Shown here one piece after another: positions 42,480-56,541 of a stretch of DNA of 64,000 nt (within the stretch, counting starts at the first letter, position 1; each line of letters opens with the position of its first letter). This DNA comes from Thermodesulfovibrio aggregans. Its GTDB lineage: Bacteria; Nitrospirota; Thermodesulfovibrionia; Thermodesulfovibrionales; Thermodesulfovibrionaceae. A program made the translations under genes and the position numbers. The notes below the pieces were generated by a model. It ran no database searches. It saw only the letters and a program-made list of their open reading frames with translations, and had not been told where the DNA came from. Location of the stretch: assembly GCF_001514535.1 (NCBI RefSeq), contig NZ_BCNO01000001.1, positions 186,001 through 250,000 of the forward strand. Direction: 5' to 3'.

Positions 42480-42570
42480 CGGAGAGGGAGGGATTCGAAC
42501 CCTCGGTGGAGCTTTTAGACCCCACACGCGATTTCCAGTCGCGCCCGTTCGGCCACTCCGGCACCTCTCC
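42480..42570 (-). tRNA. tRNA-Ser (GGA)
   Basis: The minus strand folds as GGAGAGG ... CCTCTCC with discriminator G, D arm, anticodon stem CGCGA-CTGGAAA-TCGCG (anticodon GGA), a long class II variable arm, and T arm with GGTTCGAATCC. Length 91 nt; CCA is not encoded. The long variable arm and G73 identify serine. Confidence 0.96.
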
Positions 42571-52314: not shown

Positions 52315-52590
52315 ATGAAACTTCTTGATTATCTAAGAGTTCTTGCAAGACAGTTAATTGACAATGACTACAGCGAGGAGACTCTAAAAGATATATCTCT
52401 CGTCGAAATTGATTTACATCAGATAAAAGAGGAGCTTAATTTCATTGAAGGGAGTGAACTTCTCGAGCTTGAAGAAATTGATATGATAAGGGCTCTTCTT
52501 GCTTATCTATTGATGAGGGAGACCGATCTACACGAAGATGATATATACAGCTTTATTTTCAGTAAAGGAAAACAAATAATATGGAACTAA
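52315..52590 (+). CDS. Hypothetical protein between dprA and topA
   Basis: I do not recognise this 91-residue acidic, mostly helical protein, rich in Leu, Glu and Asp, without cysteine. It starts on the base after the dprA stop, with AGGAGG 6 nt upstream, and overlaps topA by 10 nt, so it is certainly translated as part of the operon. In gammaproteobacteria the smg gene sits between dprA and topA-like genes; the location is similar but I see no clear sequence match. Confidence 0.75.
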   Translation: MKLLDYLRVLARQLIDNDYSEETLKDISLVEIDLHQIKEELNFIEGSELLELEEIDMIRALLAYLLMRETDLHEDDIYSFIFSKGKQIIWN

Positions 52591-54908
52591 AAGGAAAAAA
52601 TCTTATAATTGTCGAATCACCTGCAAAAGCGAAAACAATCAATAAAATTGTAGGGAAAGATTTTCAGGTAAAGGCATCAATTGGACATATTAAAGACCTT
52701 CCAGAGGACAGACTTGGTGTTAATATAGAAAAAGGATTTGAGCCTGAGTACATTATAATTCCAGGAAAAGAAAAAGTCGTAAAAGAACTAAGAGAGTCTG
52801 CGAAATATGCAAAAAAAATATTTATTGCCACTGATCCTGATAGAGAAGGAGAAGCTATAGCCTATCACATTGCAGAAGAAATAAAGACTTCAGGAGTTCC
52901 AGTTTATAGGGCAATCTTTAATGAAATCACTCCAACTGCCGTAAAAAAGGCAATTGAAAATCCGTCAAAGATAGATTTAAACAAAGTATATTCTCAACAG
53001 GCAAGAAGAATTCTTGACAGACTTGTTGGTTACAACTTGAGTCCTTTTCTCTGGAAGAAGGTTAAAAAAGGGTTAAGTGCTGGAAGGGTTCAATCTGTTG
53101 CTTTACGAATGGTTGTTGAAAGAGAAAAGGAAATACTTACATTTCAGCCCACAGACTACTGGACAATACATGGTGAATTTGAAAGTGACGGGAAAAAACT
53201 TAATGCCAATTTACATAAGTACAGAGGTAAACTTGTCGTTGACAGAAAAGATGAAGAAGCAAAATTTCTAATTACTGTTGAAGAAGAAGCTCAAAAAATT
53301 ATAGATGAACTTAAAGGATTAGATTACTATCTGTCAAAGATTGAAAAGAAAAGAAAAAAGAAAAATCCACCAGAGCCTTTTAGAACCGCAACACTTCAAC
53401 AGCAGGCTTCGTCAGTACTAGGTTTTTCTCCCAAGAAAACCATGTTAATTGCTCAACAACTTTACGAAGGAATTGATATAGAAGGCAGTAGAGTTGGATT
53501 GATTACATATATGAGAACAGACTCTGTAAGAGTTGCTCAGGAAGCAAAACAGTGGGCAAAAAAAATTATTGAGGGAACTTTTGGTAAAGAATTTATCGGT
53601 ACAGACACAGGCAAACAGACTAAAAAAACAACAACACCTATACAGGATGCCCATGAATGTATAAGACCTACTTATCCTGATAAAACACCAGACGTTGTCA
53701 AGAAATATCTTACAAAGGAACAATACTCTTTATATAAACTTATATGGGACAGATTTCTTGCCAGCCAGATGAGCCCCGCTGAGATTGAACAAACTACATA
53801 TATAATTGAAGACAAAGACAGTACTGCCCAATTCAGAGTAAGTGGTTCAGTTATTGTATTTCCAGGATTTCTTGTTCTCTATAAAGATGAAGAAAGTGAG
53901 CAAGATACAATATTGCCTTCTTTGAAAGAAAAATCTCAATTAAAACTTATTGATGTTACATCAGAAAAACATACGACAGAACCTCCTCCAAGATATACAG
54001 AGGCAACACTTGTTAAAGCCCTTGAAGAGAAAGGTATTGGCAGACCTTCTACCTATGCTACTATACTAAGTACAATTCAGGAAAGAGATTATGTAAGAAA
54101 GATCAAAAATAGGCTATATCCAACCTATCTCGGTTTTGTTGTAAATGACCTTCTTGAAGAAAAGTTCCCTGAGTTGATGGATTATAACTTTACTGCAAAA
54201 ATGGAAGAAGATCTTGATAAAATCTCCCTAAACGAAGTTAAGTGGAATAAAGTAATTGAAGAATTTTATAGAGAATTTGAGAAAGATCTTGAGGAAGCTC
54301 TAAAAACTTCCAGAAGAACAAAACCCAGAGAAATCATGACAGAAGTCATATGCGACAGGTGCGGTAAAAATATGGTTATAAGATGGAGCAAAGGATTACC
54401 ATTTTTAGCTTGTTCCAGTTATCCTTCCTGTAAAAATTCCAGATCATTAAGCAAATCTGAAAATGGTAATGAAGCAAAACCAACGGACAAAATATGTCCA
54501 GAATGTGGGGCTCCACTGGTGATAAGAAATGGCAGAAGAGGTGAATTTATTGCCTGTTCAAAATATCCTGAGTGTAAATATACTCAATCAATTACTGCTG
54601 AGATAAAGTGTCCCCAATGCGGTGGAGATATTTTGAAAAAACAAACTAAAAAAGGCAGAAGTTTCTGGGCTTGTTCAAATTATCCAGAGTGTAAATTTAC
54701 ACTATCTTTTGAACCAGTAGCAGTGGAATGTGAAAAATGCAAAGCTCCTTACATGTTGAAAAAGAAAGACAAAAATGGTGAAGAATTTTTAATTTGCCAT
54801 AATCCATCCTGTAAATGTAAAATAGAATTAAACGAAAACTCAGCTGGGACCGACCCTGCGCAGCAGAAGGATGTGAACCCCGCCAGGTCCGGAAGGAAGC
54901 AACGGTAA
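52581..54908 (+). CDS. topA: DNA topoisomerase I
   Basis: This is a 775-residue type IA topoisomerase. It has TOPRIM (LIIVESPAKAKTINKIVG, ATDPDREGEAIAYHIA), the active tyrosine Y310 in GLITYMRTDSVRV, EALEEKGIGRPSTYA-like KALEEKGIGRPSTYATI, and four C-terminal C4 zinc ribbons (CDRCG, CPECG, CPQCG, CEKCK). It relaxes negative supercoils. The final 21 codons, after the last zinc ribbon, are read through the 5' part of the SRP RNA gene (54846-54943). The overlap makes its last residues dictated by RNA structure. Confidence 0.96.
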   Translation: MELKGKNLIIVESPAKAKTINKIVGKDFQVKASIGHIKDLPEDRLGVNIEKGFEPEYIIIPGKEKVVKELRESAKYAKKIFIATDPDREGEAIAYHIAEEIKTSGVPVYRAIFNEITPTAVKKAIENPSKIDLNKVYSQQARRILDRLVGYNLSPFLWKKVKKGLSAGRVQSVALRMVVEREKEILTFQPTDYWTIHGEFESDGKKLNANLHKYRGKLVVDRKDEEAKFLITVEEEAQKIIDELKGLDYYLSKIEKKRKKKNPPEPFRTATLQQQASSVLGFSPKKTMLIAQQLYEGIDIEGSRVGLITYMRTDSVRVAQEAKQWAKKIIEGTFGKEFIGTDTGKQTKKTTTPIQDAHECIRPTYPDKTPDVVKKYLTKEQYSLYKLIWDRFLASQMSPAEIEQTTYIIEDKDSTAQFRVSGSVIVFPGFLVLYKDEESEQDTILPSLKEKSQLKLIDVTSEKHTTEPPPRYTEATLVKALEEKGIGRPSTYATILSTIQERDYVRKIKNRLYPTYLGFVVNDLLEEKFPELMDYNFTAKMEEDLDKISLNEVKWNKVIEEFYREFEKDLEEALKTSRRTKPREIMTEVICDRCGKNMVIRWSKGLPFLACSSYPSCKNSRSLSKSENGNEAKPTDKICPECGAPLVIRNGRRGEFIACSKYPECKYTQSITAEIKCPQCGGDILKKQTKKGRSFWACSNYPECKFTLSFEPVAVECEKCKAPYMLKKKDKNGEEFLICHNPSCKCKIELNENSAGTDPAQQKDVNPARSGRKQR
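54795..54824 (+). promoter_or_regulatory. Candidate promoter for ffs inside topA
   Basis: TTGCCA (54795-54800), 18 nt and TAAAAT (54819-54824) lie in the last zinc ribbon codons of topA. Initiation near 54831 would leave about 15 nt before the mature SRP RNA 5' end. Confidence 0.35.
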
Positions 54909-54943
54909 GCATTCCATTCTGCGTGCCGCAGTAAGTCGGTCCC
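54846..54943 (+). ncRNA. ffs: Signal recognition particle RNA, small (4.5S) type
   Basis: The 98-nt sequence has GGGACCGAC at its 5' end pairing with GTCGGTCCC at its 3' end, and the universally conserved SRP helix 8 tip: GTGAACC, CAGGTCCGGAAGGAAGCA and GGTAAGC. TTTTT follows at 54944-54948, so the terminal stem doubles as a terminator. It shares 54846-54908 with topA on the same strand and precedes dnaX, a neighbour seen in many bacteria. It binds Ffh for co-translational targeting. Confidence 0.97.
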
Positions 54944-54960
54944 TTTTTAAGGAATTTAAG

Positions 54961-56541
54961 ATGGCATATCTGGGCCTAGCAAGAAAATACAGACCTCAAA
55001 AGTTTTCTGATCTAACAGGACAAGAAGTAGTTGTAAAAATACTTGAAAATTCATTAAAAGCTGGAAAGATCTCTCATGCCTATATTTTTTCAGGTCCTAA
55101 AGGAGTTGGCAAAACATCAACAGCAAGGATTCTTGCAAAAGCATTAAACTGTACAGGCCATCAGCCAAGACCCTGCAATGAATGTCCTTCCTGCCTTGCA
55201 ATAAAAGAAGGTAGAGCTATGAGTGTTATAGAAATAGATGCTGCATCTCATACATCAGTGGAAAACATTAGAGATTTAAGAGAGAATATAAGATATGCCT
55301 CTGCAGAAGGGCTTTATAAAGTTTACATAATTGATGAGGCTCACATGTTGAGTCAAGCAGCCTTTAATGCTTTTCTTAAAACTTTGGAAGAACCTCCTCC
55401 TCATGTGGTATTTGTTTTAGCAACAACTGAACCAAGAAAAATTCCTCTAACTGTTTTAAGTAGATGTCAGCATCTTCAATTTAAAAGAATCCCTGTTAAT
55501 TTAATAAAACAACGACTTCAATTTATTTGTATGCAAGAAAATATTGATATTACTGAAGAGGCACTTCATATCATTGCAACAAATGCTGAAGGTAGCATGA
55601 GAGATGCTTTAGTATTGCTTGATCAAGTAACATCATTTACAGATAAAGTCACACAGGAAGATGTAAATCTTCTGATTGGTGGAGCAGATACAGGGCTACT
55701 TTATGAGCTTACAGAATCCTTAATTGAGGGAGAAAAGGAAAGAATTATTTTGCAGATAGAAGAACTAAATAGTATTGGAACTGACTTCAAAAGGCTGACA
55801 ACAGATTTAATTAATTTTCTGAGAAATATACTTGTATGTAAAATCACGAAAAATTTTAAACTTTATGTAACTGAATCAGAGACAGAGCTAATTACAAAAT
55901 TGAGTAAGAAGACATCGGAAGAGCATCTTATTCTTCTCATAAAAGAATTAATTAATTCTGAGTTGGCAATAAAAAATTCGTTTTTCCCGAGAATTATTTT
56001 CGAGATAACTCTTCTCAAACTTAGCCTGCTGTCACACTTCAGAAATATTGATGAAACCATAAGAGAGGTAAACAAAAGAGTGTCTGTGGATAATGCAATT
56101 CCTCCTACATCTTTATCTCAAAATACAGAGAATTTAGTTGAGAAAGAAAAATCTTTACCAGAAAGCACATTAAAATTAAAAGAAACAATCTGGCAGGAAT
56201 TTCTTGAAAAGCTTGAAGTTCAGAATCATCTGCTTGCTACGAAAATTAAACATGCTGAAGTAATTTTTGAAGATAATGAAATTCATTTAATTTACAATGG
56301 TGGTGCTGCTCTTTATGCTGAATCTTTAAAAGAAAATTTATCGGTAATCCAAAATTTATTGAAAGAATCAGGTTATGATGGTAAGATAGTTATACGGACT
56401 GTAGAGAATTTAAATACACATCAGTCAAGGGAAGATTTAACTAAGGAAGTTATTAATCATCCTCTTGTTAAAAAAACTTTGCAGCTTTTTGATGGAAGAA
56501 TTTTTAATATAATACCTAAAAAAGGAGGAGGAGATGTCTAA
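54961..56541 (+). CDS. dnaX: DNA polymerase III gamma/tau subunit
   Basis: This 526-residue clamp-loader ATPase shows [19 protein letters not shown], Walker [16 protein letters not shown], a zinc module ([15 protein letters not shown]), Walker [11 protein letters not shown], and the SRC arginine finger motif. The C-terminal third is divergent. AAGG lies about 8 nt upstream, right after the SRP terminator T-run. No clear programmed frameshift signal was seen in the middle of the gene, so tau may be the main product. It overlaps ebfC by 8 nt. Confidence 0.96.

Follow-up and report, generated by a model that had tools for sequence, protein, structure and literature searches.

A signal recognition particle RNA gene supplies the end of the topA reading frame in Thermodesulfovibrio

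Can a housekeeping RNA gene double as the end of a protein gene? This question is raised by a 64,000-nucleotide (nt) stretch of the Thermodesulfovibrio aggregans genome (assembly GCF_001514535.1, contig NZ_BCNO01000001.1, positions 186,001 to 250,000, hereafter the window, in whose numbering all positions are given). Here the reading frame of topA, encoding DNA topoisomerase I, lacks a stop codon ahead of ffs, the gene for the small RNA of the signal recognition particle (SRP), and continues into ffs on the same strand until it meets a TAA inside the RNA gene. Three features make up the overlap:

52581–54908, plus strand: topA, open reading frame (ORF) for DNA topoisomerase I of 775 amino acids (aa), with Pfam matches PF01751, PF01131 and PF01396 and no stop before ffs
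54847–54945, plus strand: ffs, bacterial small SRP RNA of the 4.5S type, Rfam RF00169
54846–54908, plus strand: shared stretch, the last 20 topA codons and the TAA, covering the 5' arm, the apical loop and the start of the 3' arm of the SRP RNA

The topA product has the make-up of a bacterial topoisomerase I, consisting of a Toprim domain (PF01751), the type IA catalytic domain Topoisom_bac (PF01131) and C-terminal repeats of the C4 zinc ribbon Zn_ribbon_Top1 (PF01396); its named close relatives, 72–79% identical, likewise point to Thermodesulfovibrio. The ffs gene matches the complete Bacteria_small_SRP model (1–97) with 81.4 bits against a gathering score of 40 (E 1e-16). ORF and Rfam match together confirm the coordinates of the first-pass annotation, according to which the topA frame enters ffs and ends at TAA 54906–54908, corresponding to ffs nt 60–62. 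The same annotation had the last 21 TopA residues encoded by the SRP RNA gene; the SRP-encoded end holds, but it amounts to 20 residues, GTDPAQQKDVNPARSGRKQR, with codons running from GGG (54846–54848) through CGG (54903–54905), followed by the TAA. A second ffs copy relieving the topA-linked one of its RNA role was ruled out, as the 2.0-Mb genome contains a single ffs.

Comparison with related genomes, a check already proposed for this locus, confirms that a structured RNA and a coding frame share same-strand DNA and shows that the overlap is fixed in the genus. An ffs match was obtained in 14 Thermodesulfovibrio genomes, two incomplete ones (56% and 63%) giving none, and junction, phase and TAA at ffs nt 60 are identical in all 14. 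TopA identity to the protein of the window ranges from 71 to 83% over the matched part in the 13 congeners, meaning that both genes are conserved across species with their overlap kept throughout. Agreement of 14 independent genomes at this level of divergence makes it virtually inconceivable that an error of sequencing or assembly is masking a stop codon in topA. When the SRP-encoded peptide was used as a query against 149 genomes of the order, all 14 genus members yielded an open frame of 667–802 aa, whereas the other 125 matched genomes held no coding frame entering ffs in the topA phase, their longest open frame measuring 129 aa. The longer of these unfused frames, translated for part of the survey loci and judged by eye without a database search, looked chance-like, several of them crossing a tRNA-Ser-like stretch and none recalling a known protein. 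Likewise, at about 40 further ffs loci from the same phylum and from other phyla, no upstream reading frame running into ffs made a convincing gene; ffs was located there approximately, by its conserved core, which could not be recognised at four of the loci. The topA genes of 14 sampled relatives from the order end at a stop of their own, 12–29 residues past the last cysteine. Because the long frame occurs only in genus members and the topA of relatives has its own stop, the fusion is, among the genomes compared, a derived feature of the genus, which is the only one representing its family here.

What sets the locus apart is a topA gene without a stop before ffs, while the open frame within ffs itself is unremarkable: owing to the conservation of the RNA, 14 of the 16 SRP RNAs inspected from unfused relatives can likewise be read in this phase up to the identical TAA, and two are interrupted sooner, by a TAA at nt 15. 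The two remaining phases of these RNAs give different run-ons. Since it is the conservation of the RNA that keeps the phase open, the tail sequence is a by-product, and any gene losing its stop in that phase would gain it.

The ffs gene keeps its function as an RNA. The predicted fold of ffs has a free energy of −50.0 kcal/mol and also forms within longer RNA. Taken over all 14 genomes, 96.6% of the ffs cells are paired versus 34–43% in slid controls, and six pairs have changed on both sides versus 2.3 in shuffles, an excess that is partly expected as the reference structure was taken from one of the 14 sequences. The overlap thus contains a conserved SRP hairpin with compensatory changes. Some RNA changes in the coding half alter TopA, namely GAC to GAG (D to E) in the congener G006 and GCG to ACG (A to T) in G009 and G014. 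With base pairs covarying while amino acids change, the dominant constraint on the overlap is, on this comparative reading, RNA pairing and not residue identity.

How, then, is the SRP RNA made from DNA that is also part of a protein gene? Three more features bear on this point:

54794–54823, plus strand: probable ffs promoter within topA codons, with −35 TTGCCA (54794–54799), an 18-nt spacer and −10 TAAAAT (54818–54823)
54824–54846, plus strand: end of the topA linker and putative short 5' leader of the SRP precursor
54961–56541, plus strand: dnaX, ORF for DNA polymerase III gamma/tau, with Pfam matches PF13177, PF12169 and PF22608

The probable answer from the sequence is that ffs has its own sigma-70-type promoter inside topA, an element that the first-pass annotation does not mention. 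TTGCCA-N18-TAAAAT scores 10/12 in a sigma-70-type consensus scan, and the element was found in all 14 genomes with a mean best score of 9.79/12 versus 6.43 ± 0.88 for a stretch of the same size slid along topA. It beats all of the approximately 690 other positions, the next-best score anywhere in topA being 8.07. The element sits in the codons of the last zinc ribbon, and it is here that synonymous conservation begins to rise: synonymous codon identity among the congeners averages 0.58 over topA, reaches 0.78–0.88 ahead of ffs in codon windows from position −44 before the stop, and is about 0.90 or more inside ffs. The cysteine codon forming part of the −35 hexamer is TGC in 14/14 genomes, while most other topA cysteine codons are mostly TGT. 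The distance from the −10 hexamer to ffs is 23 nt in 12 genomes, 17 nt in G008 and 14 nt in G006, so that the differences are multiples of three, and the spacer between ffs and dnaX varies freely from 9 to 24 nt over the 14 genomes. In G006, a 72%-complete draft in which the deletion deserves confirmation, the shortened frame (662 aa) lacks most of the zinc-ribbon region, and the last ribbon has a broken cysteine pattern; TTGCTT-N18-TAAAAT and the open frame into ffs are nevertheless still present (topA end at G006:C44, locus L115).

Taking these observations together, we consider it very probable that topA and the housekeeping RNA gene ffs, whose same-strand overlap is fixed in Thermodesulfovibrio, give rise to two transcripts sharing DNA. 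As judged from the relatives, topA would have been placed directly upstream of ffs in an ancestor and would have lost its own stop, after which translation would end at the conserved TAA of the SRP RNA. The topA mRNA would be translated through the 5' arm and the apical loop of ffs up to nt 60, and SRP RNA would start at its own promoter in the last zinc-ribbon codons. The precursor would carry a leader about 15 nt long, which is probably removed, perhaps by RNase P, as happens to the SRP RNA precursor in E. coli. The sequence itself establishes the overlap, its conservation, the RNA structure and the promoter-like element; from these we infer that the transcripts are separate, that the leader is trimmed and that ribosomes open the SRP hairpin while translating topA mRNA. 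Promoter and RNA structure would constrain the DNA, and the basic tail of 20 residues would be mainly dictated by the RNA, with a benefit to TopA being optional. Some points weigh against this account. The promoter was recognised by its match to a consensus, backed by comparison, and its start site is a predicted one; the same region encodes a zinc ribbon, so part of the conservation could be protein-level; and topA transcripts that read through into ffs and dnaX may contribute some SRP RNA by processing. A protein-level cause is disfavoured by the conservation at synonymous sites and by the relic in G006.

The first-pass annotation had instead suggested that the enzymes processing SRP RNA may also cleave topA transcripts. 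With the conserved promoter-like element, SRP RNA need not derive from topA mRNA and such cutting becomes unneeded, although it is possible as an occasional side path. If the mRNA were cut where ffs begins, topA would lose its stop and a nonstop mRNA would result; tmRNA is present in the genome and would be available to rescue the ribosomes. Were SRP RNA excised from topA mRNA in general, each SRP RNA would destroy one topA message and the topoisomerase level would be coupled to the SRP RNA supply. The tandem arrangement of topA, ffs and dnaX on one strand with short gaps, the ability of the SRP fold to form within longer RNA and the tmRNA are all compatible with excision, but the conserved promoter-like element lies just upstream of ffs, SRP RNA is as a rule far more abundant than a topA mRNA, and no processing signal was identified, making excision an improbable source. 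Even less credit is due to the idea that translation into ffs is itself the function, with ribosomes holding the SRP hairpin open so that the polymerase reads into dnaX, while untranslated ffs transcripts would fold and end at the hairpin and a T-run. A run of 3–6 T does follow the SRP terminal stem just before dnaX in 14/14 genomes, yet it is short, and a terminator scan at the ffs end and this T-run called none.

Better founded, if still doubtful, is the proposal that the overlap persists for the sake of TopA, whose SRP-encoded basic tail (RSGRKQR) would be required for binding nucleic acid, as described for the basic tails of mycobacterial TopA, where a basic C-terminal tail increases relaxation activity (PMC7192597). 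The net charge of the ffs-encoded 20 residues is +3 to +4 in 14/14 genomes and the tails past the last cysteine are acidic in 12 of 14 relatives, a comparison that was made after seeing the data. Furthermore, none of the 14 genomes has a stop or a frameshift, and the two length changes in the linker are multiples of three. On the other hand, the tail is simply what the SRP RNA spells in this phase, and unfused relatives are predicted to encode it just as well, and residues in the helix part change along with the RNA covariation. Neutral simulation on the topA tree left the 11-codon linker stop-free in all 14 genomes with P = 0.20 when rate-matched to the observed divergence, compared to 0.0007 at the unconstrained third-position rate; a simulation of a 24-codon stretch was discarded as its consensus root apparently held a stop through gap columns. 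In-phase stops within ffs number 0/14 in fused versus about 21/125 in unfused genomes (Fisher P = 0.13, uncorrected for relatedness, from counts tallied by hand from the reported matches). These linker and stop statistics are suggestive of selection on the frame without proving it. Only tentatively would we hold that the SRP RNA gene is a working exon-like end of an essential protein, with the basic tail, or the ending of translation within the SRP fold, serving some purpose under selection in Thermodesulfovibrio.

Downstream, the surroundings of ffs are conventional. The usual bacterial neighbourhood is ffs-dnaX-ybaB-recR, and in the window ffs is likewise followed immediately by dnaX, which starts 15 nt past the end of the Rfam match, and further on by ORFs resembling ybaB and recR. 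In several congeners, the CCCTTT at the SRP RNA 3' end and the dnaX ribosome-binding site AAGG/AAAGG (region 54940–54961 in the window) are complementary, which may be coincidence. On the upstream side, several relatives from the order differ from the window in having a tRNA-Ser-like stretch directly before ffs and topA elsewhere, suggesting that a rearrangement may have brought topA to its present place. In the window, a tRNA with a long variable arm, of the Ser type by its look, lies at 42480–42570 on the minus strand, about 12 kb from ffs and on the opposite strand. A 91-aa ORF without a Pfam match (52315–52590) is found between dprA and topA, its end overlapping the topA start by 10 nt. 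Outside the window, the genome encodes a second, distant type IA topoisomerase (G000:C1:971229-972737) in a frame of 1148 aa, which had no match in several congeners; length and similarity suggest that it is a reverse gyrase candidate.

The arrangement shares traits with several known systems. Type I 3'-end-derived bacterial small RNAs (sRNAs) are transcribed from a promoter of their own that lies inside a coding sequence or directly behind it (review PMC7821165); ffs resembles them in that its predicted promoter is located in the 3' portion of a protein gene of the same orientation. Those sRNAs are regulatory, whereas here a housekeeping SRP RNA carries the topA stop and is crossed by the frame over most of its 5' half. 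The sRNA MalH from the malG 3' end of E. coli includes the stop codon together with a stretch of coding sequence (PMC8081044), as ffs does, but ffs differs from it by its ancient fold and by having its own conserved promoter-like element. With mycobacterial TopA, the protein has in common a short basic tail past the last C-terminal domain; in contrast to the mycobacterial case, this predicted tail is spelled by an SRP RNA. No earlier report of a housekeeping SRP RNA supplying a protein end was found in the open-access literature as judged by titles and abstracts, nor did that literature yield anything relevant on SRP RNA/coding overlaps or Thermodesulfovibrio transcriptomes.

For annotation the locus is a trap, as pipelines disfavouring overlaps between coding and RNA genes may truncate either gene. 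It also offers a clean natural case for asking how ribosomes deal with a stop codon placed within a highly stable hairpin at elevated temperature. In Thermodesulfovibrio, a near-universal structured RNA, the end of an essential enzyme and an embedded promoter share DNA through a genus divergence to about 72% TopA identity, which shows a route by which a protein can gain a tail, the capture of an RNA gene. If the SRP RNA gene indeed worked as an exon-like end, this could mean, for example, better DNA binding by TopA or a coupling of topA translation to dnaX readthrough.
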